This document shows, in pieces, positions 34,097 to 52,840 of a DNA stretch of 64,000 nt. The first letter of the stretch is position 1; every line of letters starts with the position of its first letter. The DNA comes from a virus, in the IMG/VR virus record IMGVR_UViG_3300032322_002561, positions 172,310 to 236,309 of that record. One strand, written 5' to 3'. The notes beneath the pieces are model-generated. The model searched no databases. It worked only from the letters and a program-made list of their open reading frames with translations, and was not told the DNA's origin. The position numbers were made by a program, and so were the translations under genes.

Positions 34097-34807
34097 CTAA
34101 TTTTGTTGACGCAGTTTTGCCAAACCCAGAATCTGCAGAATTCGTATGTACATCCACCCAATATCAAATTCCCACCAACGTTGGCTGAATTTGGCACTGG
34201 CTCCGTCAGCATGGTGACCGTTGTGTAGTTCTTCGCCGCCGATCCAAATGGCTATGGGCCATAGATTACGGCTGGTATCTTTGGTGTCGACGTTACGGTA
34301 GCCCCACCAGTGGCTGAGTCCGTTTATGACACCGGCCGCCCAGAACGGAATCCAGATCATCTGCACACCCCAGACCAACAAGCCCCAGGGACCAAACACA
34401 GCCAGGTCAATAATGAACATGATCATAATGCCTAGTCGGCTGTGCCGGGCATACAAATTGCGCTCGATCCAGTCGTCGGGGGTGCCTGTGCTTAGATCTT
34501 TGACCATGCCACGATCCCGGCTGGCCTTGTGATATAGAAATGCACCACCAAACAGCACACGCCAAATACCGTAGATTTGAGGACTGTGCGGGTCTCCTGG
34601 TTGGTCACTCTTTTGGTGATGTCGGCGGTGTATGGCCACCCATTCACGAGTGATCATGCCAGTGGTGAGCCACAACCAAAAACGCATGAAGTGAACTACC
34701 ATAGGATGAAACTGCACAGCTCTGTGAGCTTGGCTTCTGTGCAGATACAGCGTCACACAGGCTATGGTAATTTGGACCATTACCAAGGTCGCGATGATTG
34801 CGGACAT
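34097..34807 (-). CDS. Fatty-acid desaturase (acyl-lipid/acyl-CoA type)
   Basis: 236 aa from ATG 34807; longer forms run through the late element and neighbour. Three His boxes: HRSQAH (23-28), HRRHH (60-64), HNGHH (195-199), with four membrane segments between, as in delta-9 desaturases (di-iron membrane enzymes). Would insert a double bond into host lipid acyl chains. CTAAATA lies exactly 5 nt before ATG and no ribosome site is present. Confidence 0.9.
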   Translation of the reverse strand: MSAIIATLVMVQITIACVTLYLHRSQAHRAVQFHPMVVHFMRFWLWLTTGMITREWVAIHRRHHQKSDQPGDPHSPQIYGIWRVLFGGAFLYHKASRDRGMVKDLSTGTPDDWIERNLYARHSRLGIMIMFIIDLAVFGPWGLLVWGVQMIWIPFWAAGVINGLSHWWGYRNVDTKDTSRNLWPIAIWIGGEELHNGHHADGASAKFSQRWWEFDIGWMYIRILQILGLAKLRQQN

Positions 34808-34812
34808 GTTTA

Positions 34813-34819
34813 TATTTAG
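34813..34819 (-). promoter_or_regulatory. Late element CTAAATA abutting desaturase start
   Basis: CTAAATA-TAAAC-ATG. The upstream stop is 18 nt away, outside the motif, so this is a cleaner leaderless candidate. Confidence 0.55.
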
Positions 34820-34824
34820 CTGTT

Positions 34825-35382
34825 TTAAACGCAGCTTTCCTGGAAAGGAAAAAACGTACGGTTCAAAAATAGGGTAAAAATGCGTTTGCTCACATCCGCG
34901 GTTTCTTGTTGCAGACTGTACCAACTGGATGGTGCCAATCGTGCCACCACATCGATGTCGCCATCACGATGGATCATTTGCAAATCGTGTTTTTCAGCCA
35001 AGTGCGCCATGGTGGTGTTCCATTTCACACAATGCAGATACAACTGTTTGTAGCCACGATTTCTAGCCCAGGTGATACCTTCTTTTAGTAGATCACTGCC
35101 AAGGCCAAAGTTGCGATATTCCTCATACACACTGAGACCAAACTCTATGCTAAGGCTGTTGATCTGGGCAATGTGCAACACTCCTAACCATCCGGTACAG
35201 TTGTAACTGACTAGAAATGTGTGCTGAGTGGGATCATTTTGGATGCGTGCTACTAGATCATCAATATAATCATCTGAAACAACAATACCAAAATACATTC
35301 TACGATCTTCAGCACTGAGGCCCTTGAGCCAGTGCCCAAATTTTGGGTATTCTTCAGTGTTGAGAAATCGTGTGCTGATCAT
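34825..35382 (-). CDS. GNAT acetyltransferase
   Basis: 185 aa; GWLGVLHIAQINSLSIEFGLSVYEEYRNFGLGSDLLKEGITWARNRGYKQLYLHCVKWNTTMAHLAEKHDL has the GNAT core with acetyl-CoA loop YRNFGLGSDLL. Substrate unknown. TAATG coupling to the 43-aa gene upstream. Confidence 0.87.
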   Translation of the reverse strand: MISTRFLNTEEYPKFGHWLKGLSAEDRRMYFGIVVSDDYIDDLVARIQNDPTQHTFLVSYNCTGWLGVLHIAQINSLSIEFGLSVYEEYRNFGLGSDLLKEGITWARNRGYKQLYLHCVKWNTTMAHLAEKHDLQMIHRDGDIDVVARLAPSSWYSLQQETADVSKRIFTLFLNRTFFPFQESCV

Positions 35383-35929: not shown

Positions 35930-36373
35930 ATGAAAACAACAATAATAGGCGCCCTGGCGATGGTGTTTGTCAACGGGAGCTATGCTGCAGAACTGGTACA
36001 TCAGTTCAATTCACCTTCCTTTTCGGGTCAGGGATATTCAAGTCATGTCTTGACCATTGAGCAACTGGAGGCCAGCCGTAGAAAAACCATAGCCGACGCA
36101 CAACGAGCCGCACAAGAAAAAGCCGAACGCGATGCCAAAAATACCAATCTGGCCAAGTTCTTGGTCAATGTTGAGTCACGAATTTACGCTCAACTCAGCA
36201 AGCAGTTGGCTGATGCTATGTTTGCTGACAACAATGCCACTTCGGGTACCATGGATTTCCAAGGAACCAACATTTCGTGGGTCAAAACCGGCACAGATGT
36301 CACACTAACCATTATAGAGTCCAACGGTAATAGAACAGACATCACAGTGCCTCTTGCGAGTTTTGCGTTCTAA
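35930..36373 (+). CDS. csgF: Curli assembly protein CsgF homologue
   Basis: 147 aa. Signal peptide MKTTIIGALAMVFVNGSYA. The mature start ELVHQFNSPSFSG matches CsgF (GTMTFQFRNPNFGG), and the end (SWVKTGTDVTLTIIESNGNRTDITVPLASF) matches its beta C-terminus. A charged helix (ASRRKTIADAQRAAQEKAERDAKNTN) is inserted between. CsgF caps the CsgG pore and helps nucleate curlin. Overlaps csgG by 1 bp. Confidence 0.88.
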   Translation: MKTTIIGALAMVFVNGSYAAELVHQFNSPSFSGQGYSSHVLTIEQLEASRRKTIADAQRAAQEKAERDAKNTNLAKFLVNVESRIYAQLSKQLADAMFADNNATSGTMDFQGTNISWVKTGTDVTLTIIESNGNRTDITVPLASFAF

Positions 36374-37410
36374 TGCGTAAACTGCTCTTGATCCTTTTTG
36401 TTGCGGTGTTGCCGGGTTGTGCCTACATACACATGGAAGTGGCACAGGAAGAACCTGTGAAGGTTACACCCAAAAAAAATCTCATGGATCAATTGCCGGT
36501 GCTGGATGGTCCGCCCATGACCGTGGCCGTGTACGGATTCAGAGATCTTACCGGACAGAACAAACCCAATGATCGTTTGGCCCTGTTTTCAAAGGCAGTA
36601 ACACAAGGTGCTGAAGTATTTCTCATCAAGAGCCTACAAGATTCAAAGAACTGGTTCCGTGTGGTGGAACGTGTGGGTCTGGACAACTTGATCAAAGAAC
36701 GTCAGTTAATAAGAAATCAGCGTGAAGTCTACGAAGGCAAAGAAGCCAAGCCCTTAAAGCCCTTGACCGTGGCCGGTATCTTGCTGGAAGGCGGTATCAT
36801 AGGCTATGACAGCAATATCAGGTCAGGCGGTAATGGTGCCAGGTTCCTGGGCATAGGTGGCAGCCAGCAGTATCGTGTGGACGAAGTCACAGTGAGTCTT
36901 AGATTGATCAGTATCAGTAGTGGCGAAGTTCTGATGACCAATGCTGTGACCAAGACCATATATTCAACAGCACACAATGTGGGCGTGTTGAGATTTGTGG
37001 ATGCTGGAACCAAGGCCCTGGAGTTGGAAAATGGACAGGCGTTGAACGAGCCCACTACCTATGCTGTGCGTGTGGCCATTGAACAAGCCGTGTATGAACT
37101 GATTGTGGAAGGTCAGAAGAAAGGCTTATGGAGTTACCGGCGTCCTGAGGAGAAACGCAATGATGTCAATCCTGCTACAACAGGCACAGAAACAAAGCCA
37201 TTGCCACCAAAAGCCACTGTGGTCACAATAATGAAACTGCGTGAAGCATCATATATCTATCGTGATCCAGACGAACGTAGCCAGCGTACCTGGATGTTGA
37301 AGGAAAACACAGAATTGACCGTGACACCAGGCCAGGATGGCTGGGTTGCGGTACAAGATTCAGCCGGTCGCAAGGGCTGGGTCAAAAGTGACAGGTTAAT
37401 TCAGCCATGA
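36373..37410 (+). CDS. csgG: Curli secretion pore CsgG homologue with C-terminal SH3-like domain
   Basis: 345 aa. Lipobox LPGC (Cys16). CsgG core: MTVAVYGFRDLTGQNKPN, VVERVGLDNLIKERQLIR, VAGILLEGGIIGYDSNIRSGGNGARFLGIGGSQQYRVDEVTVSLRLISISSGEVL, with the constriction region present. Residues ~275-345 add a bacterial SH3-like domain (MKLREASYIYRDPDERSQRTW...GWVKSDRL) absent from E. coli CsgG, which could bind peptidoglycan. Forms a nonameric outer-membrane pore; might also permeabilise the envelope at lysis. Confidence 0.95.
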   Translation: MRKLLLILFVAVLPGCAYIHMEVAQEEPVKVTPKKNLMDQLPVLDGPPMTVAVYGFRDLTGQNKPNDRLALFSKAVTQGAEVFLIKSLQDSKNWFRVVERVGLDNLIKERQLIRNQREVYEGKEAKPLKPLTVAGILLEGGIIGYDSNIRSGGNGARFLGIGGSQQYRVDEVTVSLRLISISSGEVLMTNAVTKTIYSTAHNVGVLRFVDAGTKALELENGQALNEPTTYAVRVAIEQAVYELIVEGQKKGLWSYRRPEEKRNDVNPATTGTETKPLPPKATVVTIMKLREASYIYRDPDERSQRTWMLKENTELTVTPGQDGWVAVQDSAGRKGWVKSDRLIQP

Positions 37411-37479: not shown

Positions 37480-37614
37480 TTGGACAATAACAAAAACAAA
37501 TCCAATCTGAAAACAAATGGAAAAGAGATGGACAGGCACTGGCGGACTGCCGAGAAAATTATCCGCAATTCTGGTGGTCGCTGCAATGTGGTCACTGGGT
37601 GCTCAGGCCAATGA
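37480..37614 (+). CDS. Possible upstream overlapping frame (TTG start)
   Basis: 44 aa (MDNNKNKSNLKTNGKEMDRHW...) starting TTG 4 nt after the only strong AAGGAG in this leader, and ending inside the curlin gene in another frame. Might be a regulatory leader peptide coupling to ATG 37517; might be chance. Confidence 0.25.
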   Translation: MDNNKNKSNLKTNGKEMDRHWRTAEKIIRNSGGRCNVVTGCSGQ

Positions 37615-38143
37615 AGTTTACATTGAACAGGTAGGCAGTGGTTCAACCATAAACATCACGCAACAGGGCACAGACAACCGCATTGGTGACAGCACCACCG
37701 CGGCCTATATAGGATCAGGATCCAACACAGTGACCATAGATCAGATTGGTTCAACCAACGCTCTGGACATGGTGGTCAATGGCGCTGGTACAGATGTCAC
37801 GGTCAGCACTACCGGTGACAACAACACGCAAACCATTAACTGTGGGACCACACAGTCGGCGGGCTGTAGCGGCAGCGTGATCAGTGCTACCATTGCTGGT
37901 GACAGCAACATCACCACGCAAAATCTTGGTGCTGGAGCCAATCATACCAGTAACATTTCCATCACTGGAGACACCAACACTGTTACCCATACCAGCACTG
38001 CCACAGGTACTACTTTGGCAGATATTACTGTGTCGGGCAATACCAACACAGTGGCAGTCACACAATCGGGAATGTTGAACAAGAGTGTCACAGTTACCAG
38101 CACTGGCAACAGTAATACTATTAATATTACTCAGTCAGACTAG
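37517..38143 (+). CDS. Curlin-repeat protein (CsgA/CsgB-like)
   Basis: 208 aa. Signal peptide to about residue 34 (LSAILVVAAMWSLGAQA). The mature part has degenerate curlin repeats: NEVYIEQVGSGSTINITQQGTDNRIGD, NTVTIDQIGSTNALDM, NTVAVTQSGMLNKSVT, ending NSNTINITQSD. Such repeats build the amyloid beta-helix of curli. One repeat carries a Cys pair (INCGTTQSAGC). It would be secreted through CsgG. The 3' end overlaps the FecR-like gene by 59 bp. Confidence 0.88.
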   Translation: MEKRWTGTGGLPRKLSAILVVAAMWSLGAQANEVYIEQVGSGSTINITQQGTDNRIGDSTTAAYIGSGSNTVTIDQIGSTNALDMVVNGAGTDVTVSTTGDNNTQTINCGTTQSAGCSGSVISATIAGDSNITTQNLGAGANHTSNISITGDTNTVTHTSTATGTTLADITVSGNTNTVAVTQSGMLNKSVTVTSTGNSNTINITQSD

Positions 38144-39164
38144 TTGGGCTTCAGTGGGCCGCGTGGTTGAACAGACCGGACCCACTGAAATAGTGCGCAA
38201 CAAAAAGAGTCTGAGCAGTAGTGTGAATGCACCTGTGGAGATGTTGGACACTATTGTTACTGCCCGTGCCAAGGCCAAAGTGGAGTTTGTGGACAAGACC
38301 ACGGTCAACATTACTGAGCAGAGCAAGATACTCATAGATGACTTTGTGTATGACCCCCGGGCCGGATCGGGCAAGTTGGCCATGAAGATGGTACAAGGCA
38401 CTGCCAGATATGCGTCGGGTCAGATAGCCAAGAACTCACCACAGAATGTAAACATAACCACACCCACTGCCGCTGTGGCCGTGCGTGGCACAGACTTCTC
38501 AATGACCGTAGATGAACTAGGCCGTAGTCTTATCATGTTGTTGCCCAGTTGCGATGCCAAGTCTTGTGTAACAGGATCAATCAGTGTGAGCAATGACGGT
38601 GGATCTGTGATCTTGGACGTGGCCTATCAGGTCACTGTGGTCACAAGTTTATCAACACCTCCTTCTGCGCCCACGGTGATACAGATTGACCCCAGCAACA
38701 TCAACAACCTGCTGATCGTGGCACCACCATCGGCGGTTCGTGAGGCCCTACAACCCGTGCAACAGACAGCGTTGGATATTAATTTTCTAAACAAGGACCT
38801 GCTGAAGTATGACGAGCTGAATGTGAATTATCTGGAAAAATTCCGGCAGTTGGATGTGAACTTTTTGGACATTGATTTCCTGGTCAATTTGCTGGATCTC
38901 AGCAATCAACAACTCAGTGCCAGCCTGGATGCCATGAGTCGTGAAGCCAGCTTGTTGCCGGCCTATGATCCCAATTCGGGACTGAGATATTTTTTTAACG
39001 ATGATGAAAGCAAGGTCACTGTGCGACTAAACACCGGGCACATGGCCGAAGTCACTGTGGGAGTAGAGCACGATGCTGTAGTAACCGTAAATCAAGCAGG
39101 TTGGGCAGTCACACAACAGATCAACCGTGGTGGGACCAGCATAATTAATATTGTACAGAAATAA
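38085..39164 (+). CDS. FecR-domain secreted protein with curlin-like tail
   Basis: 359 aa from GTG 38085; the signal peptide (LPALATVILLILLSQTSWA) is encoded inside the curlin gene in another frame. FecR-type beta domain at ~25-170 (VTARAKAKVEFVDKTTVNITEQSKI, ITTPTAAVAVRGTDFSMTV). Residues ~225-290 contain NxxFLxxDLL-like repeats (INFLNKDLLKYDELNVNYLEKFRQLDVNFLDIDFL). The C-terminus VVTVNQAGWAVTQQIN...IINIVQ is a curlin-like unit. Probably a curlin partner or nucleator. Confidence 0.83.
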   Translation: MSQLPALATVILLILLSQTSWASVGRVVEQTGPTEIVRNKKSLSSSVNAPVEMLDTIVTARAKAKVEFVDKTTVNITEQSKILIDDFVYDPRAGSGKLAMKMVQGTARYASGQIAKNSPQNVNITTPTAAVAVRGTDFSMTVDELGRSLIMLLPSCDAKSCVTGSISVSNDGGSVILDVAYQVTVVTSLSTPPSAPTVIQIDPSNINNLLIVAPPSAVREALQPVQQTALDINFLNKDLLKYDELNVNYLEKFRQLDVNFLDIDFLVNLLDLSNQQLSASLDAMSREASLLPAYDPNSGLRYFFNDDESKVTVRLNTGHMAEVTVGVEHDAVVTVNQAGWAVTQQINRGGTSIINIVQK

Positions 39165-39390: not shown

Positions 39391-39669
39391 ATGGGAGAAT
39401 TCTTCCGACTAGTCGCAGAACTAGGATTTCCAATAGCTGCTGCCATAGCAGCCGGATACTTTGTATTCCTGACTCTCAAATTTATTCTCGCTGGTGTTAC
39501 CAGCAGTGTCAAAGGCATGGCCGGCATAATCGGCGCACTAGACAAACGTGTGGCCACCATGAATCACGATGTCATGCGCATAGACACCAAAGTTAGCCAT
39601 GCTCTGGGACTACAGCCGGATCTAGATCGTATTGCTCGTGCTGAACAAAGCGATGCCAGGAGAGATTAA
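39391..39669 (+). CDS. TM plus coiled-coil protein, paralogue A
   Basis: 92 aa. One TM (GFPIAAAIAAGYFVFLTLKFI) then a coil (IGALDKRVATMNHDVMRIDTKVSHALGL). Paralogous to 40189. AAGGAG 7 nt before ATG. Holin-like or membrane scaffold; unknown. Confidence 0.78.
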   Translation: MGEFFRLVAELGFPIAAAIAAGYFVFLTLKFILAGVTSSVKGMAGIIGALDKRVATMNHDVMRIDTKVSHALGLQPDLDRIARAEQSDARRD

Positions 39670-39857
39670 TGTTATACGTTGATTACGCCTGGGATTTAGA
39701 ACCCAATAGAATTCTATTAGACGAAGAACTTGACATTGACCGGTTGGGCTGGCGAGGCGGTGACTATTTTCAAGTCAAAAACGTCAATGGTCGTGCCATG
39801 TTGGTCAAGGTCGATCCCTTGGTAAAATTCCTAAAGGACGGAGAAAAAAATGAATAA
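39669..39857 (+). CDS. Conserved small phage protein
   Basis: 62 aa; LYVDYAWDLEPNRILLDEELDIDRLGWRGGDYFQVKNVNGRAMLVKVDPL. TAATG start. Pattern recurs in T4-like phages; function unknown. Confidence 0.78.
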   Translation: MLYVDYAWDLEPNRILLDEELDIDRLGWRGGDYFQVKNVNGRAMLVKVDPLVKFLKDGEKNE

Positions 39858-39996
39858 ATGGACAGCCTGGTATGACAGCTTGCCCGAACATACCAAACGA
39901 TATCTTGATACTCGAGCAGTATGGCATGATCGTGATTTGTTTGTGGTTGCAGCTATGACTTTTGTGCTGGGTATTTTTGTTGGACTGGCCATATAA
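39850..39996 (+). CDS. 48-aa membrane protein
   Basis: MNKWTAWYDSLPEHTKRYL...DLFVVAAMTFVLGIFVGLAI; amphipathic N-terminus and one C-terminal TM. Overlaps neighbours by 8 and 1 bp; membrane cassette member. Confidence 0.68.
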   Translation: MNKWTAWYDSLPEHTKRYLDTRAVWHDRDLFVVAAMTFVLGIFVGLAI

Positions 39997-40187
39997 TGTT
40001 AGAAGTTACCTACGCATTTATTGGATTTATTATGGGCGGTGCGGCATTGATCATCAGTCTATATGTCTGGTTGACCATGGACGAGGCTTTAGAAAATGGT
40101 CGTTCGTGGATGCAACTTAATCGCGAGTTGAAAGAAAAAATAGAACAGATGGAACGTGCTAGTCCATCATCACCTTGGAAGAAATAA
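39996..40187 (+). CDS. 63-aa membrane protein
   Basis: N-terminal TM (YAFIGFIMGGAALIISLYVWL) then a helix (NRELKEKIEQME). TAATG junction. Unknown. Confidence 0.72.
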   Translation: MLEVTYAFIGFIMGGAALIISLYVWLTMDEALENGRSWMQLNRELKEKIEQMERASPSSPWKK

Positions 40188-40188
40188 C

Positions 40189-40479
40189 ATGGACATTGTA
40201 ACCTTAATCAACAAATACGGATTCCCTATAGTGGCCGCCGGCGGCATGGGATATCTCATTTTCTACGTATGGAAATGGGCCACCACAGAAATCAAACCTG
40301 TACTTAGCGAGGCAAATACAACTCTCATTGCCTTGATTGATCGTATCCGTATGTTAGACAATGATTTAATCAGACTCAATCAAAAGGTCAATGTGACCTT
40401 GCACCTGCGTGGCCGAAGCATCGAAGCCGAACGCATGGCCCAAGACGAAACAATTAATACACCTAAGAACGACAAATAG
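40189..40479 (+). CDS. TM plus coiled-coil protein, paralogue B
   Basis: 96 aa from ATG 40189. GFPIVAAGGMGYLIFYVWKWA then IALIDRIRMLDNDLIRLNQKVNVTLHL parallels 39391 in order and spacing. Ends the membrane cassette; convergent with the frame at 40463. Confidence 0.78.
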   Translation: MDIVTLINKYGFPIVAAGGMGYLIFYVWKWATTEIKPVLSEANTTLIALIDRIRMLDNDLIRLNQKVNVTLHLRGRSIEAERMAQDETINTPKNDK

Positions 40480-40681
40480 AACTGGCCTTGATTCCATTCA
40501 ATGTGAACTGACTGACCCACTTGTCAGTGTCACTGTACAAGCCAGGAATGCGATGTGGCAGATACCAAAGATTCAAAAAAGTCCAGACAGCACAATCCCA
40601 ATACCAATCCGTGTAACTATTTAGATGTTGCCTTATAGGTTCCCATCCAGTCACTTGGCTTACCTGCCGCAAGTCGTTCAT
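40463..40681 (-). CDS. Possible small Trp/Tyr-rich protein
   Basis: Up to 72 aa (MNDLRQ... start) with a protein-like core YTDWYWDCAVWTFLNLWYLPHRIPGLYSDTDKWV. Overlaps the adenylate cyclase 3' end and has no clear ribosome site. Fills the gap between cyclase and the membrane cassette. Doubtful. Confidence 0.35.
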   Translation of the reverse strand: MNDLRQVSQVTGWEPIRQHLNSYTDWYWDCAVWTFLNLWYLPHRIPGLYSDTDKWVSQFTLNGIKASSICRS

Positions 40682-42632
40682 CCATGGCCCCATAATATGC
40701 CTCCAGTTCTGGGCAGGCTTGTTTGCATCCTGGAATCAAGGCCTGTGCTTTTTTCCATTCGCCTGCGTAATACAAGCTGATAAAATCTTTATGCAAATCT
40801 GTTTCTGTTGCCAATGTATATATGCGTACACCTTCGTTCTTGCCTTTGACAGCTATACAGTCTAGTTCCGTAACCGAGTAGGTATCTCGGACAAGCTCAG
40901 CAGTACGCGATCCCAATACAATGCGAACGCCATAAGGCTTTGACTGACCTTCGAGTCGGCTTGCCAGATTAACGCTGTCACCAAGGCAGGTGTAATCAAA
41001 ACGCTGACTGCTGCCCATATTACCAACGACAACGGTACCAGTGTTGATACCAAGGCCCATGCCAAAAGGCGGAACGCCTTCTGCACTGATTTCACGATTG
41101 AATTCATCCAAACTCTCCATCATTTGTAAAGCAGTACGCACAGCATTTCGAGCATGATCTGGATCATCCAAGGGTGCGTTCCAAAATGCCATCTGTGCAT
41201 CGCCAATATATTTGTCCAAGGTACCTGCATTTTCAAGTATCTTGGCAGTCATGGCTGTCATATAACGATTCATAATCTTTGTGAGTCCTTGCACGTCGGC
41301 ACCATAGTGTTCGCTGATGGTGGTAAATCCACGCACATCTGTGAACATGATGCTGAGTTCTCTGCTTTCACCGCCCAAGGTCAGTAGCTCGGGATTCTTT
41401 TGTAGACGTTCAACCATGGCTGGACTCAAGTATGTGCCAAACTGTTTCTTTATTTGTTGTTTAGCAAGATATTCAGATACAAAACGTACTCCGTAACTGT
41501 GAAGAAGCACAAGCACAAGGCCAGCAACAACCAAAGTGCCGTCCGTGAGCCAAGCATGACTCGAGTACAGAGCATGAGGAAGCCATAAACAAACACCAAG
41601 AACAACAACACTACCAGCAATACCAACATAGGTCCATCTCCCTAAAAATATCAGTGCTACACTTAGCAACACCAATGTTAAAATCTCTGCACCGTCGGCC
41701 CAGTCAGGTCTGGTGATGGCTGGACGTATTTTGTTGGCCATCACTGTAGAAATAACTGCGGCCTGCAAGTCCTGTGGCAACATTTCACCCAGACTGGTGG
41801 CCACTGGATTGGCCAAGCCCGCAGCACTGACACCTACAATCACTATCTCACCATCAAAGTCCTTTGGTAGATTCATCAAACTATGACGTTCTGGCGTTAG
41901 ACTCCAGTCAATCCAGATTCTACTGAGACTGTCTGTGGTTATCGGACCAAACTGTGGAATGCGTATTTTTTCCACACCAGATTCGTTGACTTTGACTTGT
42001 ATGGTTGAGTCGCCTGCGGCCACACGCATGACTTCTACGGCTAGACTGGGATATAATTGTCCGTTGTGGGCCACAACCATGGGCATGCGTCTGACCACAC
42101 CATCTATTTCAGGAAAAGTGTTGACTATGCCTACTCCAGCGGCGGCCTGTTCCACTGCAGGGATATTGGCGATGATACCACCGTAGTTCACAAAAGCATC
42201 TTGTCCATAGGGACCTATCTGCGCTGATCCTGGAGCTCGAGGTTGGTTGCGAGTCTGTGTGCTGCCTATGCTGGGCAACACTACTGGATGGCGTTTTAAG
42301 GTTTGGACGTAAGTTTGATCTCGGCCAAAACGATCGCTATCTGGAGTGAGCACGTTAAAAACAACAAGCCCAGCATTACGGCTGTAAAGGTCCTCAATGA
42401 TGGCAGCATATCTATCACGGCTAAAAGGAAATTGTCCATAACGTTCCAAAGCTTTCTCATCTATGTTTACCACATGCACTCCGGTGACTTCTGCTGGCTT
42501 GCTGGTCACAAGAGTATCAAAATAACGTAATCTTACACTTTCTACAAAGGCAGGATCTGCTATGCGTATACCCACAATCACAGCCAGGGTAAACAAGGCT
42601 GTCCAGGGGCTGGTTAGAATTTTTCTTAGCAT
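40617..42632 (-). CDS. CHASE2-domain class III adenylate/guanylate cyclase
   Basis: 671 aa from ATG 42632. N-terminal TM, extracytoplasmic CHASE2 sensor (~25-310: LRYFDTLV..., VNIDEKALERYGQFPFSRDRYAAII, DFDGEIVIVGVSAAGL), three TM segments (~330-405), then the cyclase (425-625): SIMFTDVRGF with metal Asp432, DKYIGD with Lys474/Asp478, and GDSVNLASRLEG with Asn555/Arg559, so catalysis looks intact. Position 480 is Gln (GDAQMAFWNAP, usually GDAVMAFWGAP). Makes cAMP, less likely cGMP, in response to an envelope signal. TTAAATA 4 nt before ATG. Very unusual in a phage. Confidence 0.93.
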   Translation of the reverse strand: MLRKILTSPWTALFTLAVIVGIRIADPAFVESVRLRYFDTLVTSKPAEVTGVHVVNIDEKALERYGQFPFSRDRYAAIIEDLYSRNAGLVVFNVLTPDSDRFGRDQTYVQTLKRHPVVLPSIGSTQTRNQPRAPGSAQIGPYGQDAFVNYGGIIANIPAVEQAAAGVGIVNTFPEIDGVVRRMPMVVAHNGQLYPSLAVEVMRVAAGDSTIQVKVNESGVEKIRIPQFGPITTDSLSRIWIDWSLTPERHSLMNLPKDFDGEIVIVGVSAAGLANPVATSLGEMLPQDLQAAVISTVMANKIRPAITRPDWADGAEILTLVLLSVALIFLGRWTYVGIAGSVVVLGVCLWLPHALYSSHAWLTDGTLVVAGLVLVLLHSYGVRFVSEYLAKQQIKKQFGTYLSPAMVERLQKNPELLTLGGESRELSIMFTDVRGFTTISEHYGADVQGLTKIMNRYMTAMTAKILENAGTLDKYIGDAQMAFWNAPLDDPDHARNAVRTALQMMESLDEFNREISAEGVPPFGMGLGINTGTVVVGNMGSSQRFDYTCLGDSVNLASRLEGQSKPYGVRIVLGSRTAELVRDTYSVTELDCIAVKGKNEGVRIYTLATETDLHKDFISLYYAGEWKKAQALIPGCKQACPELEAYYGAMDERLAAGKPSDWMGTYKATSK

Positions 42633-42659: not shown

Positions 42660-43010
42660 ATGTATTGGGGATATCATTTACTGTTAGATTGCAGCGGCTG
42701 TAAAAACATAGACAGCCGAGACAATATCTACCGTTTTGTCAAAGATTTGGTAGCTCGTATAGACATGACTGCACATGGCGAACCCATTATTGAATACTTG
42801 TTACCGGGTGATCCCAAACAGGGCTACAGTTTGATGCAGTTAATTACCACTTCAAACATTGCTGGACACTTTATGGAACTGGATGGCACCGCTTACTTTG
42901 ATATATTCAGTTGCAAAGAATTTGATATAGAAACAGCCAAACAAGTGGTGCACGATTATTTTGCACCCGAACGTATGCGTGTGAATTTCTTAACACGTCA
43001 TGCCGATTGA
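42660..43010 (+). CDS. S-adenosylmethionine-decarboxylase-like protein
   Basis: 116 aa. DCSGCKNIDSRDNIYRFVKDLVARIDM, QLITTSNIAGHFMELDGTAYFDIFSCKEFDIETAKQVVHDYF and NFLTR follow the SpeD/SpeH order. The usual self-processing ESHI(T/S)xHTWPE is TTSNIAGHFMEL, so the pyruvoyl Ser may be Ser65-66 but activity is uncertain. SpeD-like genes are known auxiliary genes of marine phages. Feeds polyamine synthesis if active. Confidence 0.75.
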   Translation: MYWGYHLLLDCSGCKNIDSRDNIYRFVKDLVARIDMTAHGEPIIEYLLPGDPKQGYSLMQLITTSNIAGHFMELDGTAYFDIFSCKEFDIETAKQVVHDYFAPERMRVNFLTRHAD

Positions 43011-43740
43011 GTTTCCTGTCAAGGTTCCTTACACCACAGCACCCAACATGGTGCGCAACACAGGCGAAGTTTTTAATCGTCGACCCAATAAGCGCATCCT
43101 AGAACTCAAACGCCAAGAACTGATCCGGCATAACAAAGATCTGTACGCCCAAACTGACCTGGCAGCCAATTTACGTCTGGTAGGACATGCTTTAGACTTT
43201 TGCGGCCTGCCCAACTATTATGGCCTACAACAGTTGGCCATGAGCATCGAAGAAGACATTGCTATCATGCACAAGGGTAGGTTAGAAGCTATTTGTTTTT
43301 GTTTTCCTAGTAGCTGGATACCTCGAGAACGCATAGGTCAGACCTTGGCAGACATACATGCACCAGTGGCCGACGGTGACAAGTTAAGACAAATGAGCCA
43401 ACGCATAGCCGAGACCATGGCTGATCCAGCACAAGGCAGTTTCCGCAGACATGTATGGACCATTGCCAACAGCGGCGAGCTCAGTCAACATCCGGCCAGC
43501 AAGAGCAATCTGGTGCCCACCAGCATCGAAGATCTTTGGTTTAGACTGGAAACACAGACCACGCATCCTGTGGGCGATGGTGTTACTAGTTTGTTTTTTG
43601 TGCGAGTGGAAACAGAACCATTGTCAATGATTTGGAATGACTCGCACCGACGCCAGATCTTGATAGACAGTGTCAACAGCATGTCCGATGCTGTGTTGAC
43701 CTACAAAAACTTACACGAGATCAAAAAACTGCTGATCTAG
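43000..43740 (+). CDS. DUF3445 / heme-dependent oxidative N-demethylase-like protein
   Basis: 246 aa. ICFCFPSSWIPRERIGQTLADIHAPVADGDKL and DLWFRLETQTTHPVGDGVTSLFFVRVETEPLSMI match the DUF3445 core (P..W...K.G..l..IH.PVP; RxExQTL). Members demethylate amines such as dimethylamine. It overlaps the SpeD-like gene by 11 bp; both handle amines, which may be meaningful. Confidence 0.8.
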   Translation: MPIEFPVKVPYTTAPNMVRNTGEVFNRRPNKRILELKRQELIRHNKDLYAQTDLAANLRLVGHALDFCGLPNYYGLQQLAMSIEEDIAIMHKGRLEAICFCFPSSWIPRERIGQTLADIHAPVADGDKLRQMSQRIAETMADPAQGSFRRHVWTIANSGELSQHPASKSNLVPTSIEDLWFRLETQTTHPVGDGVTSLFFVRVETEPLSMIWNDSHRRQILIDSVNSMSDAVLTYKNLHEIKKLLI

Positions 43741-44027
43741 TTCATTAATAATCTGATAAGTCCAACTGTGTCAATGGTGATCATCAGCAGGTAGTTGGCC
43801 AGCATTCCTGAACTACGACGAGTCCATGCGGCCCAGGCCAGCAGGCTACAAGTTACAATAAACGCAGGATAGATCCAGTAAAAGGGCGGGTTAGGCAAGG
43901 TCACTGCCATGGTTACAGCCACCACCACACTCACAATCCAGGCTACAAACTCGGCGGCAAAGCGTAAAGGATAACTGCGATAATCTTCCTGTATCCAACT
44001 CCAGGTTCGTTGTATAGTATCTATCAT
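43737..44027 (-). CDS. Small membrane protein
   Basis: 96 aa, three TM segments (about 23-42, 48-64, 74-94). ATGA junction with uvsE. Unknown. Confidence 0.75.
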   Translation of the reverse strand: MIDTIQRTWSWIQEDYRSYPLRFAAEFVAWIVSVVVAVTMAVTLPNPPFYWIYPAFIVTCSLLAWAAWTRRSSGMLANYLLMITIDTVGLIRLLMN

Positions 44028-45055
44028 ACCAATCCTAACTCCACTGCACGATTGTAAACCTGCTCACTGGCCAGGTTCTTGCCTTTGCTTTCGCACTGTA
44101 TGTCAAACTGGTCCCAGAAGCCCAACACCCAGTCAGTGGCGGCCTGATTCCAATAAAAATCTGAGTGTGCTCGTAATTTTTGTTTTTTGAATCCAGACTC
44201 TAGCAGACTTGCATGATCTGGTTTATGGTGAACGGCATGGTCAACAAGTAGATCTTCACGGCTAACGCTGTAGTGCATAGCAGGACGCACACCGCGCCAA
44301 CTGTCAACAACACGTTTGACCCTATCGTCATCAGGCTGGATGTATTCGCCCGTTTTAATCCAGTGATGATGAACATCAAGAACAGTAGGAACAATATCAG
44401 CCAGCTCCAGGCAATGATCCAGCCCATGTGTTATTTCCTCGTTTTCAAAGGTGATACAGTTGCGTGCTTCTGTACTTAGTCGAGACCAGGCACGACGAGC
44501 ACCAGCGGCACCGGCCTTGCCGGAGATATGCACATTGATCTTCATGTCTTGAAACTGACGACCAAAGCCCATCCAACGAGCCATGTCGGCATGATACTCG
44601 AACTCTTCTATACTGCGATCTACGATTTCTTGGCTTTCACTACCCAACACACAAAACTGCCCTGGATGAAAGCTGACTCGCACATCTAGTCTACGGGCGG
44701 TTTCGCCAATGGGTGCAAAAATACGTTCACAGTGTGCTTGGATCTCAGGGCGTTGCCACCAGGCCTTCCAATCCTTTTCTGTGTAGCCCTGTAGCATTTC
44801 TGATCCTAAGCGCACCATCCTACGATTGGCCGGCAATGAAGCCACACGCTCAATCAGTCGGACAGCAGCCGCAGTATTGTGGTTCATGATGTCCCACTGG
44901 CGTTGTTCGGCTTCCTCAGGATGCTCACGCAACCAACGCATGGTCGTGCTACGGCCATTTAGGTCACGGTCTTTGGCATTGACTTTCATGCCGCCGCATT
45001 CGCTGGGATCATTGAGCCATTTGCAACAGAAACCAATGCGTTTGAGTGTAGTCAT
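44024..45055 (-). CDS. uvsE: UV damage endonuclease (UvsE/UVDE)
   Basis: 343 aa TIM-barrel enzyme: RIGFCCKWLNDP, VRLGSEMLQGY, RVSFHPGQFCVLGS, KINVHISGKAGA, ITFENEEITHGLD, VPTVLDVHHHW, MHYSVSRED and RAHSDFYWN carry the metal-binding His/Glu/Asp residues. Nicks 5' to UV photoproducts. Known in T4-like cyanophages. ATG 45055 lies 5 nt after the TATAAT of its promoter, so the mRNA may be leaderless. Confidence 0.93.
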   Translation of the reverse strand: MTTLKRIGFCCKWLNDPSECGGMKVNAKDRDLNGRSTTMRWLREHPEEAEQRQWDIMNHNTAAAVRLIERVASLPANRRMVRLGSEMLQGYTEKDWKAWWQRPEIQAHCERIFAPIGETARRLDVRVSFHPGQFCVLGSESQEIVDRSIEEFEYHADMARWMGFGRQFQDMKINVHISGKAGAAGARRAWSRLSTEARNCITFENEEITHGLDHCLELADIVPTVLDVHHHWIKTGEYIQPDDDRVKRVVDSWRGVRPAMHYSVSREDLLVDHAVHHKPDHASLLESGFKKQKLRAHSDFYWNQAATDWVLGFWDQFDIQCESKGKNLASEQVYNRAVELGLV

Positions 45056-45060
45056 AAGCT

Positions 45061-45090
45061 ATTATAGCATGACTAATGATTTTTTGTCAA
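45061..45090 (-). promoter_or_regulatory. Early-type sigma70 promoter of uvsE
   Basis: TTGACA 45085-45090, 18 bp, TATAAT 45061-45066 with TGC extension. Confidence 0.8.
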
Positions 45091-46004
45091 TGACGCCGCT
45101 GAGTATCCAAAGTTACACAATGAAATCCACCTCCCAAGGTTCTGGAGTGGCTTAATGCTAGTGGTATGGTATCAAAACCTTTGGATTTCAATAGTTCTAT
45201 CAAATGCGGCTGTGCAGAATCCAATATCACGGTTTCTGGATCCACAGCCAGCATGTTCATGGCTATCCATTTTGATGCATAAGGATATTGGTAGAAACTT
45301 TGCGGCACAATCATTTCATCTGTCACCCAAATCTTTTCCCAGTAATCAAATGCTCGCGGACAGTTGTCTTTGTTGACTCGGCTGGCATTTAGCAAGACTA
45401 GGCCTTCTCGCAAGGGCACAATGGTTGAATCAATGTGTACACCTGCGTAGAAATTGCACGATTCGATCTTGACTTGTGGAAACTTTTTTGCCAACCATTC
45501 ATAAGCGGCTCTGTTGCCTGAGGCTGATTCCAAAAACAACCAAGTATCGCCTAATCTGCAAACGTTGGCTGCATCCATGATCATTCCTGAATCTCTGGGC
45601 ATGGTCAGAATATTACTGGCTTCGGCCAACAATCTTGTGTAGTTTGTGATTTCTTGGTTGCGACACGGATACATCATGTTGACATCAACCACAGTGTCTT
45701 TCCAGATCAAGAGACGATCTCTGGGGCAATAATTATACATGCCTTCTGTTTCTACAAAATTCATGGGTCGGGGCCTGTAAACAGTGACTCCCAGACGCAA
45801 CAAGGTTTCACTCAGCGTGTCAAGTTCTCTATTGGCCTGATCGACAATGTGTTGCGGTACCGGGCCTGAAGGCACCGGTGTTTCCTTCCAAGTGGTTTTT
45901 TTGCCTTCTTCAGCAAATACTGGATCCGATGTGGGCCAGTTGGCGTGGGTAGCACTGCCCACAACTATTTTTTCTAACGGATCCCACTCATTGATTGAAT
46001 ACAT
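45087..46004 (-). CDS. Amidinotransferase / arginine-deiminase-family enzyme
   Basis: 305 aa from ATG 46004 (TGATG junction). EWDPLEKIVVGSA, DAANVCRLGDTWLFLESASGN, YAGVHIDSTIVPLREGLVLLNASRVN and GGGFHCVTLD show the guanidine-modifying fold with catalytic His (VHID) and Cys296. Likely transfers an amidino group from arginine, or hydrolyses a guanidine. Third gene after the nucleotide-sugar dehydrogenase and 2OG oxygenase; a surface-sugar or small-molecule role is possible. Confidence 0.87.
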   Translation of the reverse strand: MYSINEWDPLEKIVVGSATHANWPTSDPVFAEEGKKTTWKETPVPSGPVPQHIVDQANRELDTLSETLLRLGVTVYRPRPMNFVETEGMYNYCPRDRLLIWKDTVVDVNMMYPCRNQEITNYTRLLAEASNILTMPRDSGMIMDAANVCRLGDTWLFLESASGNRAAYEWLAKKFPQVKIESCNFYAGVHIDSTIVPLREGLVLLNASRVNKDNCPRAFDYWEKIWVTDEMIVPQSFYQYPYASKWIAMNMLAVDPETVILDSAQPHLIELLKSKGFDTIPLALSHSRTLGGGFHCVTLDTQRRH

Positions 46005-46519
46005 CACACATGTCCTGTAACTTGCAAAGTATATCTGGGCACTATGCCGCAATTGGCTGCCATATGCGGAGTGTCATAGGGCCATTCTACAACATCTCCG
46101 GCTCCCCAATTTACAAAAGGCGAATCCATGTATTCAGCATAGTGTCCGGGTTGCCAGTCTTGTAAAAAAATCACAGCACGTCGTATGTTGTGTTCTTGTC
46201 CGTGCAAATTGAACAACTCAATATATTTGATGTAAAGATCACTGTGTGTGGGTAATATGGTACCGGGCATCATTCTATAGTAACTGGTACCTATGTCTTT
46301 CCATCCAAGATTAGCAAATATGCTAATGAATTGTTGATTCCATGATGGTTGTGAACTGCGCATGTCGCACATGTCACCTGTGAATCGATTTGGGAATCCC
46401 AACGACAACCAACGTTGCAAGTTGGGGTTGTCGTTGAATGGTTCGTTTATGTATTCAAGATGAACAAATTCATCATCCCAAAATTTCTTAAGCCGGTACT
46501 TTGTGATTGATCTGTCCAT
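46004..46519 (-). CDS. Aspartyl/asparaginyl beta-hydroxylase-like 2OG-Fe oxygenase
   Basis: 171 aa from ATG 46519, inside the upstream gene end. PGTILPTHSDLYIKY gives the HxD iron site, DTPHMAANCG the second His, and PRYTLQVTGH the 2OG-binding Arg. Substrate unknown. Similar proteins are frequent in marine phages. Confidence 0.82.
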   Translation of the reverse strand: MDRSITKYRLKKFWDDEFVHLEYINEPFNDNPNLQRWLSLGFPNRFTGDMCDMRSSQPSWNQQFISIFANLGWKDIGTSYYRMMPGTILPTHSDLYIKYIELFNLHGQEHNIRRAVIFLQDWQPGHYAEYMDSPFVNWGAGDVVEWPYDTPHMAANCGIVPRYTLQVTGHV

Positions 46520-47777
46520 ATTTGACGTTGGTTTCGAAGTTGGTATTTCTAGTGTTACCATAATGAATCACCGTGATACCACTGACGTCGACCATTTTCC
46601 TCCAGGGATCCACAACCACACTGCCAGCTTGGATTTCGCAGTACGGTAAAGTATCCTGTTGTTCACCGGTGTATTCGTAGGTGATTTTTCTGTTGTGTGC
46701 CCAAAGATACACAGCTGGGCCATCAACAGATTCTACTACATCTGTAGAATCGTCGGCCAAGGGATCCACATAAGTCACAGTCATGCCGGCTTCCTTGACA
46801 TAGTGGCCAACCAAGGTTGAATAACTGCCAATGCAATAGGGCACATCGGGCTTGTAGGCCTTGCCGTGTATGACTATGGGTAGATTGTGTTGTCGAGCCT
46901 TATCTACCAGGAACAAGGCCAAATTTTTGGCCTGTACTTCTCGTGCCAGCATGATGGTATCAAACAAGTCGTAACCAACATCATATTCTTCGGCCAGCCA
47001 ACGCAGCGCAATGTTGTCTCTGGGATGACAAGCGCCAGCATCGCCCATGCCTGCTGTCATGTACTTGGGTCCCATGATACGCATGGTGCTGCGAGCCAAG
47101 GCATTTGTTACTACGTCTACGTTGATGTTGCCAATCCGCATGGCAAAATCTTGAATCATGTTGGCCAGGCCGACCTTGGCACTAATAAATGTGTTGTAGA
47201 AAATCTTAATGGCTTCGCATTCATCCCAGGTTCCGATTTCGTATCTGGGGTTATTTTGCATGATGGTTTTGTAAATGTCAATCAATTCACCAGCCAAGGT
47301 GTTGGGATTTCCGTCTTCGGTGCCAATCATGACCATTTCTGGATTGACCATGTCCCACTTTACACTTCCCATGGCGATCAGATAAGGGTTGTATAAAAAT
47401 TGATGTTTTTTATCTAAAAGCGTAATAAAATGACGTCGTGTTGTGCCCGGTAACACTGTGCTGATCAGCACAACTTTTTTTGAGGATTTGGCATGTTGAT
47501 TTATCTTGCTTATGGCATCTTTGACAGCATCATGTCCAAAATCTTTGGGCTTCATGTGTGAACTAGGAACGCTGCCATCATAGCCTTCTTCGTGCGGAGT
47601 AGGCACAGCAATAAAAATCCACTCACTTTGATTGACCACTTCGTCAATGTCACAAACTTTGACGCTGTCACTTTGGCGTGGGTAAATATCATATCCCCTA
47701 ACGGTGTGTTTTTCAGCAAAGACTTCAGCACAATCTAGACCCAGTTTACCTAGACCAATAAATCCTATATTTTTCAT
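46488..47777 (-). CDS. UDP-glucose/GDP-mannose dehydrogenase family protein
   Basis: 429 aa from ATG 47777 (AAAGGAA 9 nt upstream). NAD-binding GFIGLGKLG (5-13), AVPTPHE, VLISTVLPGTT, YNPYLIAMGS and catalytic Cys250 in GDAGACHPRDN; C-terminal domain HGKAYKPDVPYCIGS. Oxidises a sugar nucleotide to a uronic acid. Divergent from the glycosyltransferase-like gene with start codons one base apart, suggesting a joint glycan role. Confidence 0.9.
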   Translation of the reverse strand: MKNIGFIGLGKLGLDCAEVFAEKHTVRGYDIYPRQSDSVKVCDIDEVVNQSEWIFIAVPTPHEEGYDGSVPSSHMKPKDFGHDAVKDAISKINQHAKSSKKVVLISTVLPGTTRRHFITLLDKKHQFLYNPYLIAMGSVKWDMVNPEMVMIGTEDGNPNTLAGELIDIYKTIMQNNPRYEIGTWDECEAIKIFYNTFISAKVGLANMIQDFAMRIGNINVDVVTNALARSTMRIMGPKYMTAGMGDAGACHPRDNIALRWLAEEYDVGYDLFDTIMLAREVQAKNLALFLVDKARQHNLPIVIHGKAYKPDVPYCIGSYSTLVGHYVKEAGMTVTYVDPLADDSTDVVESVDGPAVYLWAHNRKITYEYTGEQQDTLPYCEIQAGSVVVDPWRKMVDVSGITVIHYGNTRNTNFETNVKYGQINHKVPA

Positions 47778-47778
47778 T

Positions 47779-48948
47779 ATGAGTGTTCCTTTAGATAGAT
47801 TATACAACTACTTGCAAGACATTGTCAAGATTGATATTGTAATTTATCGCTGGTATCCACACGGATCAAAAAAACCCATCTACATACGTCCCTTGAAACA
47901 CTATGACACAATGAGCTTGCAACAAGGACCCTTTGTGCTCATGCATGATCAAGAACCCCTGGGCATGGATCAATACAGTGATCAAGATCTTATAGAATTT
48001 AAAAATTGGATAGCAGAACGTGCACCAGAAGTACATTCAGTTGGTGTCAACACTTTCATGGAAACCTTGAGAAACAACAATCTGGGAGGATTCTTGCCCG
48101 TGGATAATAACCAACCTGTGGTTGTAGTTCACAGTGAGCAGAACAGTAATGAAGTAAAAATTCTTGAAAGCACCGGTCATTTTCCAGTGTATTATTGGAG
48201 CCATGCTCTACTTGCACGAGATTGGTATCGTTATGCTGAACATGATCCCAAATTATCTTGCAAAGAATTACAACAAACCTTTCTCATCTACAGTCGTGCT
48301 TGGTCAGGCACACGCGAATATAGATTAAAGTTTTCTGAACTATTGGTTGATAATGACATGGTAGATCATTGTCGCATGAGTTTTAGCCCAACTGATTCGG
48401 ATCGGCCTTACACAAATCATGTGTATAAAAATCCCATTTTCGCCATCAACACCCAACTAGAAAATTATTTTTCAATCAATCACACAGAGTCAGATGCCAG
48501 TGCTGACTATTGCACCCAAGATTATCAAGCCACCAAGATGGAGGTGGTGTTGGAAACATTGTTTGATGATCATCGCTGGCATCTCACAGAAAAAATTCTA
48601 CGGCCCATTGCGTGTGGACATCCTTTTATTTTGGTTTCAACTCCGGGCAGTCTTAGATACTTGCGTAGTTATGGATTTAAGACTTTTGATGATGTCATTG
48701 ACGAATCATATGACAACATAGTTGATCCTTTGGCGCGACTAAAAGCCGTAGTTGAAGTCATGAAACATTTGCTGTCAGCTGATGCACATACATGGAGCAT
48801 GCTCAAGACCACAGCCGAATACAACAAATCCCTGTTTTTCTCTGCAGAATTTCAGCGTAGAATAGTTGACGAATTCTCAGCAAACTTTGATCAGGCACTT
48901 TTTAATATGACACCATCCCAGTCTGGGTCAGGCGGATTATCAACATAG
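47779..48948 (+). CDS. Exostosin/fucosyltransferase-like glycosyltransferase
   Basis: 389 aa from ATG 47779. The C-terminal region HLTEKILRPIACGHPFILVSTPGSLRYLRSYGFKTFDDVIDESYDNI matches the sugar-nucleotide-binding end of exostosin/fucosyltransferase-like families seen in phages and giant viruses. No signal peptide, so cytoplasmic. No ribosome site; ATG is 1 nt from the divergent ATG 47777. Overlaps the convergent 48891 gene by 58 bp. Confidence 0.78.
   Translation: MSVPLDRLYNYLQDIVKIDIVIYRWYPHGSKKPIYIRPLKHYDTMSLQQGPFVLMHDQEPLGMDQYSDQDLIEFKNWIAERAPEVHSVGVNTFMETLRNNNLGGFLPVDNNQPVVVVHSEQNSNEVKILESTGHFPVYYWSHALLARDWYRYAEHDPKLSCKELQQTFLIYSRAWSGTREYRLKFSELLVDNDMVDHCRMSFSPTDSDRPYTNHVYKNPIFAINTQLENYFSINHTESDASADYCTQDYQATKMEVVLETLFDDHRWHLTEKILRPIACGHPFILVSTPGSLRYLRSYGFKTFDDVIDESYDNIVDPLARLKAVVEVMKHLLSADAHTWSMLKTTAEYNKSLFFSAEFQRRIVDEFSANFDQALFNMTPSQSGSGGLST
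47799..47828 (-). promoter_or_regulatory. Early-type sigma70 promoter inside the glycosyltransferase gene
   Basis: TTGACA 47823-47828, 18 bp, TATAAT 47799-47804, leftward into 47777. Confidence 0.78.
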
Positions 48949-50919: not shown

Positions 50920-50935
50920 ACTGAGTTTCCTCAGT
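50920..50935 (-). promoter_or_regulatory. GAAA-tetraloop hairpin at dnaK stop
   Basis: ACTGAG-GAAA-CTCAGT; the dnaK TGA stop is in the 5' arm. Likely an mRNA-stability or processing element. Confidence 0.6.
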
Positions 50936-52811
50936 CTTTCTTTTCGGTAAAGTCTGCATCGACCACAGTGTCTTCTGGCTTGGATTCTGCTGTGGTTTTC
51001 TTAGACTTTGCTTCAAAGATGGGTTGGCTGACTGCCATGACTTCGTTTATCTTACCGGTCATGGCTTCACGATCTGCGCCTTTGGCTACTTCTTCTAGTT
51101 CGTTCAAGGCTCGTTCAATAGATTCAATTTGGTCAGCGGTGAGTTCAGTTCGTACTTCGGCTAGATCTTGCCGAATCATGTGCAGTGTGCTGTCAGCATT
51201 GTTGCGTGCCTGAATTAGATCGCGTTGACGTCGATCCTCTTCGGCATTGGCTTCTGCGTCCTTGATCATGCGTTGAATTTCTTCATCAGTGAGTCCACTA
51301 TTGGCCTTGATGGTGATTTTGTTTTCTTTGCCAGTGGCTTTGTCCTTGGCTGAAACATGCATGATACCATTGGCGTCGATGTCTAAGGTCACTTCAATTT
51401 GTGGTGTGCCACGACGTGCTGGTGCTATACCTTCAAGATTGAATTCACCCAAGAGCTTGTTGTGCTGACACAATTCACGCTCGCCTTGAAATACCTTGAT
51501 GGTCACAGCAGGCTGATTGTCTTCTGCGGTACTAAAAATTTGGCTGTGTTTGGTTGGAATAGTTGTATTTTTTTGAATCAGTTTGGCCATTACGCCGCCC
51601 ATGGTTTCAATCCCAAGACTGAGTGGTGTAACATCCAACAATAATACGTCTTTTCTGTCACCAGCCAGCACTGCACCTTGAATTGCAGCACCCACTGCCA
51701 CGGCTTCGTCAGGATTTACATCCTTGCGTGGTGTTTTACCAAACAGTTGCTCAACTGCCTCTTGTACCTTTGGCATGCGTGTTTGTCCACCGACAAGGAT
51801 GACTTCGTCAATATCGCTAGCGCCAACACCGGCATCTTTCATGGCTTGACGACAAGGAGCCAAACTGCGTTGAATTAGTTCTTCAACTAAGCTTTCTAAT
51901 TTTGCACGTGTGAGTTTGACATTTAAGTGCTTGGGTCCTGAGGCATCGGCAGTGATGTATGGTAGGTTTACATCAGTCTGGTTGCTGTTAGAAAGTTCAA
52001 TCTTGGCTTTTTCTGCGGCATCTTTTAGACGTTGTAAGGCAAGCATGTCTTTTTTGAGATCAACACCGCTTTCTTTCTTGAATTCATCTACCAAATAATC
52101 CATAATGCGTTGGTCAAAGTCTTCACCGCCTAGGAACGTGTCACCATTTGTTGACAATACTTCAATTTGTTTTTCACCGTCAATGTTGGCAATTTCAATG
52201 ATGCTGACGTCAAATGTACCACCCCCCAGGTCATACACAGCTACCTTGCGATCGGTTTTATCTTGTTTGTCAACACCATAGGCCAAGGCAGCTGCCGTGG
52301 GTTCGTTGATGATGCGTAGCACTTCCAAGCCTGCGATGCGTCCGGCATCCTTGGTGGCCTGACGCTGGCTGTCATTGAAGTAGGCCGGTACTGTGATCAC
52401 TGCTTGTGTGACTTCTTGGCCTAGATAGTCTTCGGCAGTTTTTTTCATTTTGCGAAGAACTTCGGCACTGATTTGTGGAGGTGCCAATTCTTGATTTTGA
52501 GCTCGGATCCAGGCATCACCGTTTGAAGCCTTGATGATTTCATAAGGCATGAGGTCTATGTCTTTTTGCACAGCTTCCTCTTCAAACTTGCGCCCGATCA
52601 GTCGCTTGGCAGCGTAGATTGTGTTTTTTGGATTGGTTACTGCTTGTCGTTTGGCACTGGCACCAACCATGATTTCATCGTCGGTATAGGCGATGATAGA
52701 GGGTGTGGTTCTAGCACCTTCGCTGTTTTCTATTACTCGGGGATTTCCGTTTTCAATAATGGCCACACACGAATTTGTGGTGCCCAGGTCAATACCTATG
52801 ACTTTGCTCAT
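50931..52811 (-). CDS. dnaK: Chaperone DnaK (Hsp70)
   Basis: 626 aa from ATG 52811 (AAGGAG upstream). Full length: [13 protein letters not shown] (phosphate 1), [27 protein letters not shown], linker [15 protein letters not shown], substrate domain with [16 protein letters not shown], and C-terminal [10 protein letters not shown]. Intact ATPase and peptide-binding parts. No dnaJ or grpE in the window, so it may use host co-chaperones. Perfect TATAAATA late promoter and TG/G hairpin in the leader. Confidence 0.97.
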
Positions 52812-52840
52812 TTGCGTTCTCCTTATGTTAAGCAAGATTT

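Follow-up and report, generated by a model that had tools for sequence, protein, structure and literature searches.

Curli genes were described in pelagimyophages by Zaragoza-Solas et al. 2020 (PMC7029224) and in the phage Melnitz by Buchholz et al. 2022 (PMC9004378), and the question of what phages gain from curli pores dates from 2020. Wittmers et al. 2022 (PMC9599517) described curli genes together with FecR and cyclase genes in pelagiphages, and reported a histidine kinase before csgF that is always present in podophages. Among bacteria, the outer-membrane protein NsrA of S. meliloti is genetically required for CyaK signalling (PMC7529298, PMC13001267). The curli/FecR/cyclase gene set is already known from ocean phages, and here we find it in a much larger T4-like group. 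The window analysed comprises 64,000 nucleotides (172310-236309) of a virus record 236,309 bases long, and it contains the complete pelagiphage-type set in one region: csgF, csgG, a curlin-repeat gene, a FecR gene and the cyclase gene.

Along the forward strand, the module contains genes that encode CsgF (35930..36373; Pfam CsgF, E = 3.1e-16); the outer-membrane curli pore CsgG (36373..37410; Pfam CsgG, E = 3.2e-54), with a C-terminal SH3-like extension (SH3_4) apparently missing from many relatives, in which matches end near residue 260; a CsgA/B-like curlin-repeat protein (37517..38143; Pfam Curlin_rpt, E = 1e-7; CsgB, 2.5e-5); a FecR-domain protein (38085..39164; Pfam FecR, E = 6.9e-13; AlphaFold, Foldseek) whose beta-rich C-terminal tail ends in a curlin-like motif; and two small one-helix membrane proteins, TM1 (39391..39669; phrog_18771), with a conserved C-terminus ...DARRD, and TM2 (40189..40479; phrog_18771, 7.7e-33), a diverged TM1 paralogue. 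Between TM1 and TM2 (39668-40190) are three more very small ORFs, of which two probably encode a membrane helix. The cyclase gene follows on the reverse strand (40617..42632). A search of Rfam gave no match.

Beyond the cyclase lie genes for a SpeD-like S-adenosylmethionine decarboxylase (42660-43010) and a haem-dependent oxidative N-demethylase-like (HODM) protein (43000-43740), an unusual AMG pair. The original prediction placed a shared divergent late-promoter region between the cyclase and SpeD genes, which does not hold: 27 bp separate the two starts, and the candidate late promoter TATAAATA has a single match in the whole window, located elsewhere and at chance level. Association of SpeD with the cyclase was likewise rejected as unconserved: of 28 testable relatives, only 5 have a SpeD gene close to the cyclase. 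Elsewhere the window encodes the UV-endonuclease UvdE (44024-45055; in 11 of 81 loci by blastp), a protein with a weak dimethylargininase-family match (45087-46052; NCBIfam, 1.3e-6; phrog_25854), UDP-glucose dehydrogenase (46488-47807), a DnaK-like protein (50931-52835), a Bax1-I/YccA family membrane protein (58232-58906; E = 2.9e-52) that resembles FtsH modulators and is here encoded by a phage, NAD synthetase (10442-11242) and a fatty-acid desaturase-like protein (34097-34924).

Integrity of the cyclase gene and selection on the module

The cyclase ORF runs from an ATG at 42632 to a stop at 40617 on the reverse strand and encodes a 671 residue CHASE2 class III adenylate cyclase (P0001; phrog_35576, E = 2.6e-259); a start at 42677, also an ATG in frame, would extend the product to 686 residues at the cost of an overlap with the next gene. 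The expectation of a complete CHASE2 adenylate cyclase on a phage is borne out by this intact gene with both Pfam domains, a CHASE2 sensor domain at residues 15-326 (41655..42590, reverse strand; E = 1.9e-38) and a catalytic domain at residues 424-607 (40812..41363, reverse strand; Guanylate_cyc, E = 3.2e-22). An AlphaFold model built with 46 relatives (mean pLDDT 83) has four membrane helices, one before CHASE2 (9-25) and three after it (312-330, 334-359, 366-398). The latter three (residues 312-398; 41439..41699, reverse strand; pLDDT about 79-94, and hydropathy) are those originally counted, to which the N-terminal helix must be added. The CHASE2 profile match starts inside the N-terminal helix and reaches the first of the later three; CHASE2 sits between an N-terminal helix and a C-terminal membrane bundle, as expected for a cyclase of the CHASE2 type.

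The catalytic domain has the expected residue set of two metal-binding Asp (D432, D478), a Lys that with T548 contacts adenine (K474), and the transition-state residues N555 and R559, so that the five positions named beforehand (Asp432, Lys474, Asp478, Asn555, Arg559) are all correct in the 671 residue numbering. Across 116 phage homologues D432, K474, D478 and R559 are invariant, whereas 91 have N at position 555 and 25 have S. Positions 548 and 555 covary, as Thr/Asn in 89/116, including the protein encoded in the window, and as Asp/Ser in 25/116, including Melnitz. Judged from these residues, the coupled T548D and N555S subfamily, whose members include L082, L003, L088 and others, may be altered in specificity or activity. 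In both sequence and fold the catalytic half resembles related cyclases of solved structure, among them P. aeruginosa CyaB and Spirulina CyaC, and these structural matches, with the Lys474/Thr548 pair, predict ATP as the substrate (and so cAMP rather than cGMP as the product).

Selection was estimated by comparing the window genes with those of a relative, L002, whose cyclase is 87% identical (dS 0.78). The dN/dS ratio for the cyclase is 0.118, and 0.087 in the CHASE2 part and in the catalytic part alike; ratios for the other module genes are 0.079 (FecR), 0.077 (CsgG), 0.028 (TM1) and 0.035 (TM2). Purifying selection acts on the whole module. The suggestion that the gene looks functional agrees with its intact domains, its invariant catalytic residues and a dN/dS of about 0.12, and the cyclase is full-length, under selection and probably active, the activity being predicted from sequence.

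Linkage of the module and the FecR partner

Linkage was assessed in four locus sets, seeded by the cyclase, CsgG, TM1 and the HTVC008M cyclase, which partly overlap and all agree. In cyclase-seeded IMG/VR loci with enough flanking sequence, the cyclase is accompanied within 9 kb by CsgG (61/62), FecR (68/69), TM1 (58/58) and TM2 (60/60), and the single CsgG exception has CsgG elsewhere on the same contig. CsgG-seeded loci contain FecR in 71/71 and the cyclase within 7.5 kb in 53/58; in all five exceptions the cyclase is farther off or cut by the contig end. TM1-seeded loci contain TM2 (74/74), the cyclase (59/59) and a nearby CsgG (49/62), with CsgG elsewhere on the contig in the other 13 of 13. 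Loci seeded by the HTVC008M cyclase contain CsgG (33/34), FecR (42/42), curlin (63/63), TM1 (23/24) and TM2 (23/24). The original prediction treated the cyclase as a lone sensor; it is indeed of the membrane sensor type, but it belongs to a curli-secretion and FecR module that the prediction did not describe. The whole phage-type curli/cyclase module is also carried by a contig filed as a Flavobacteriaceae MAG (L084, NZAX01000026.1), which is probably a phage contig binned with a bacterium.

Gene order and strand vary among these loci (the cyclase is opposite to FecR in 14 of 120), indicating that co-retention is not simple hitch-hiking, and its persistence despite the scrambled order argues for function. 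In the window the cyclase and FecR genes lie on opposite strands, about 1.45 kb apart, and are therefore not cotranscribed there. In correlations of distance matrices, CsgF, CsgG and FecR form one tight block (r about 0.80-0.91) and TM1 and TM2 another (0.62-0.84); the cyclase matrix correlates with both, to a degree that depends on sampling. At first the cyclase seemed to coevolve chiefly with TM1 and TM2, but resampling showed this to depend on the choice of loci, and the idea was abandoned.

The best cellular matches of the phage cyclase are alphaproteobacterial CHASE2 cyclases, and the closest cellular catalytic half is that of S. meliloti CyaK, which shares 49% identity with residues 381-655 of the phage protein. 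A FecR gene is nearby in 8 of the 10 bacterial CHASE2-cyclase plasmid loci examined, and nsrA, whose product has TPRs after a FecR domain (residues 66-160), lies directly upstream of cyaK. The phage cyclase likewise has a FecR-domain partner encoded near it, a 354 residue protein in which Pfam identifies only the FecR domain and whose model has no beta-barrel. The AlphaFold model of this FecR resembles (by Foldseek) the cell-surface-signalling domain of PupR and the anti-sigma regulator BDI_1681. Because of the bacterial FecR-CHASE2 pairing, the NsrA-CyaK genetics and the likeness to PupR and BDI_1681, a role for FecR as an input to the CHASE2 cyclase is, by analogy, better supported than one as an iron regulator.

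The FecR tail includes a six-strand region (residues 295-353, AlphaFold pLDDT mostly above 80) and ends in a curlin-repeat-like motif of the I-x-I-x-Q type, found in 102 of 111 homologous FecR tails vs 12 of 1175 other ORFs. A profile-profile comparison of the tail with curlin scored 24.5, against 7.5-14.1 for shuffles and 14.4 for an N-terminal FecR control, at a probability of 13% and a pairwise P of 0.002. The Pfam Curlin_rpt HMM gave no significant match to the tail, and no curli structure was among the top Foldseek matches of the phage FecR. These sequence comparisons are only suggestive of a relationship between the FecR tail and curlin.

A possible envelope-to-cAMP relay and its alternatives

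We rate at about even chances a reading in which the cyclase provides the signalling output of a curli (type VIII secretion) module carried by the phage, relaying the state of the envelope to cAMP. CsgG and CsgF would form an outer-membrane pore through which curlin would be exported; the FecR-domain protein, in the periplasm, would inform the CHASE2 domain, likewise periplasmic, about the state of pore, fibre or envelope, and this input would switch the cytoplasmic, dimeric catalytic domain. The cAMP would then reprogram the infected cell by way of CRP-type regulators that belong to the host, candidate benefits being aggregation, superinfection blocking or lysis timing. This relay is favoured because the nearest bacterial CHASE2 cyclases adjoin FecR genes, including CyaK beside NsrA, and it is built on observed gene integrity, catalytic residues, selection, conserved linkage and bacterial FecR-CHASE2 pairing. 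From there we infer cAMP synthesis, contact between FecR and CHASE2, curli state as the signal and host CRP as the effector. No cNMP-binding domain, whether of a phage CRP or another effector, was found in this record and 15 relatives, so the cAMP would act on a host protein or on one that escaped recognition. Counted against the relay are the opposite-strand cyclase of the window, the weakness of the curlin-like signal in the FecR tail and the Asn to Ser replacement at the position occupied by N555 in 25 of 116 homologues.

A more specific form, which we put forward tentatively and would not yet bet on, is a self-contained cross-envelope circuit, in which FecR would read the curli pore or fibre through its curlin-like tail and switch the CHASE2 cyclase, raising host cAMP according to outside conditions. 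TM1 and TM2, always kept with the cyclase, would be unrecognised core parts of this circuit.

The cyclase could instead be mainly a transcriptional aid, with cAMP and host CRP boosting phage curli or other genes and FecR as an iron-linked regulator, a role that Wittmers et al. 2022 argued for pelagiphages from the control of curli in E. coli and Salmonella (PMC9599517), and with which the genome linkage of the module genes is compatible. We consider this unlikely, since CsgD is not reported in pelagiphages (PMC9599517) and the bacterial loci inspected for FecR-CHASE2 pairs have no curli genes, which points to FecR as a cyclase input rather than an iron regulator. Rather improbable, too, is control of lysis, in which the CsgGF pore and small holin-like proteins would time cell opening while the cyclase senses envelope state. 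Buchholz et al. 2022 suggest that CsgGF takes part in lysis in Melnitz (PMC9004378), and no testable TM1-seeded locus has the TM pair apart from the cyclase, but the weak match of TM2 to a holin profile (phrog_4898, E = 8e-4) covers only 19 residues of membrane helix, TM1 matched no holin family, and the conserved curlin would be unneeded for a role in lysis only.

We give little credence to a phage-host conflict, in which raised cAMP would disrupt or mimic a cyclic-nucleotide defence of the Pycsar kind or guard against superinfection. PADLOC PycC models do match the class III cyclase domain (E = 6.5e-27), but S. meliloti CyaK is matched by them about as well, and no such effector was found in the 16 records searched for cNMP-binding domains; on these two grounds a Pycsar identity was rejected as a generic cyclase match. 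The active-site residues, moreover, fit adenylate rather than pyrimidine cyclases, and the constant partner of the cyclase is a secretion module.

That the gene is a passenger of bacterial origin without phage function, or misassembled bacterial DNA, is effectively refuted: homologues are known in alphaproteobacteria, but relatives of the cyclase are encoded at no fewer than 590 of 599 pattern-matched IMG/VR stretches and in the isolates HTVC008M and Melnitz, the module is under purifying selection, and the locus is syntenic with a 337 kb T4-type contig. This closest relative, with a cyclase 87% identical, has many flanking genes in common with the window and encodes a T4-type portal (E = 4.9e-106) and a terminase, which answers the proposed check that the flanks are phage. 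Tail-fibre and DNA-ligase genes are present within the window. The T4 Gp23 family, phrog_2, the T4 portal and Terminase_6N were sought in the 236 kb record and none was found; because portal and terminase are absent here yet present in relatives, the record is probably a fragment. For close bacterial copies, the bacterial genome-contig scan reached one locus, a 6.8 kb MAG contig with the same phage-type module, so that the bacterial comparison rests on plasmid records.

Relation to described systems

The module of the window shares with the pelagiphage type VIII secretion module csgF, csgG, curlin, FecR and the cyclase, an order that holds in HTVC008M and Melnitz, but it belongs to a phage of a much larger T4-like group and its cyclase is inverted. 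In place of the histidine kinase that was reported, it has two small membrane proteins. No HATPase domain was found in this record, 15 relatives gave one sub-threshold match, and this record has no histidine kinase before csgF, a position held in HTVC008M (gp11, gp12) and Melnitz (gp97, gp98) by the TM pair. Contrary to the original statement that no well-described phage has such a cyclase, Pelagibacter phage HTVC008M (gp19) and methylophage Melnitz (gp104) encode full-length homologues, 37% identical over the cyclase and with the same domain layout; the Melnitz protein is of the Thr548 to Asp, Asn555 to Ser subfamily, whereas the window protein retains Thr/Asn.

With Pycsar PycC the phage cyclase has the class III fold in common, but it differs in its CHASE2 domain and membrane helices and in that no cyclic-nucleotide-binding effector was found with it. 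The likeness to S. meliloti NsrA-CyaK is that of a FecR-domain partner and a CHASE2 cyclase. NsrA has 1200 residues, TPRs and a C-terminal beta-barrel (PMC7529298), whereas the phage FecR, at 354 residues, is barrel-free, and the pore on the phage side would be CsgG. To the known gene set we add the FecR-CHASE2 precedent of NsrA-CyaK, a TM pair that is obligate, the retention of the genes together at the genome level and a division of the cyclases into two catalytic subfamilies. There are few documented cases of phages sensing and signalling across the envelope of a cell that they infect; TM1 and TM2 provide a concrete new target, and the S. meliloti precedent allows FecR and the cyclase to be treated as a testable sensor pair rather than as 'auxiliary metabolic genes'.
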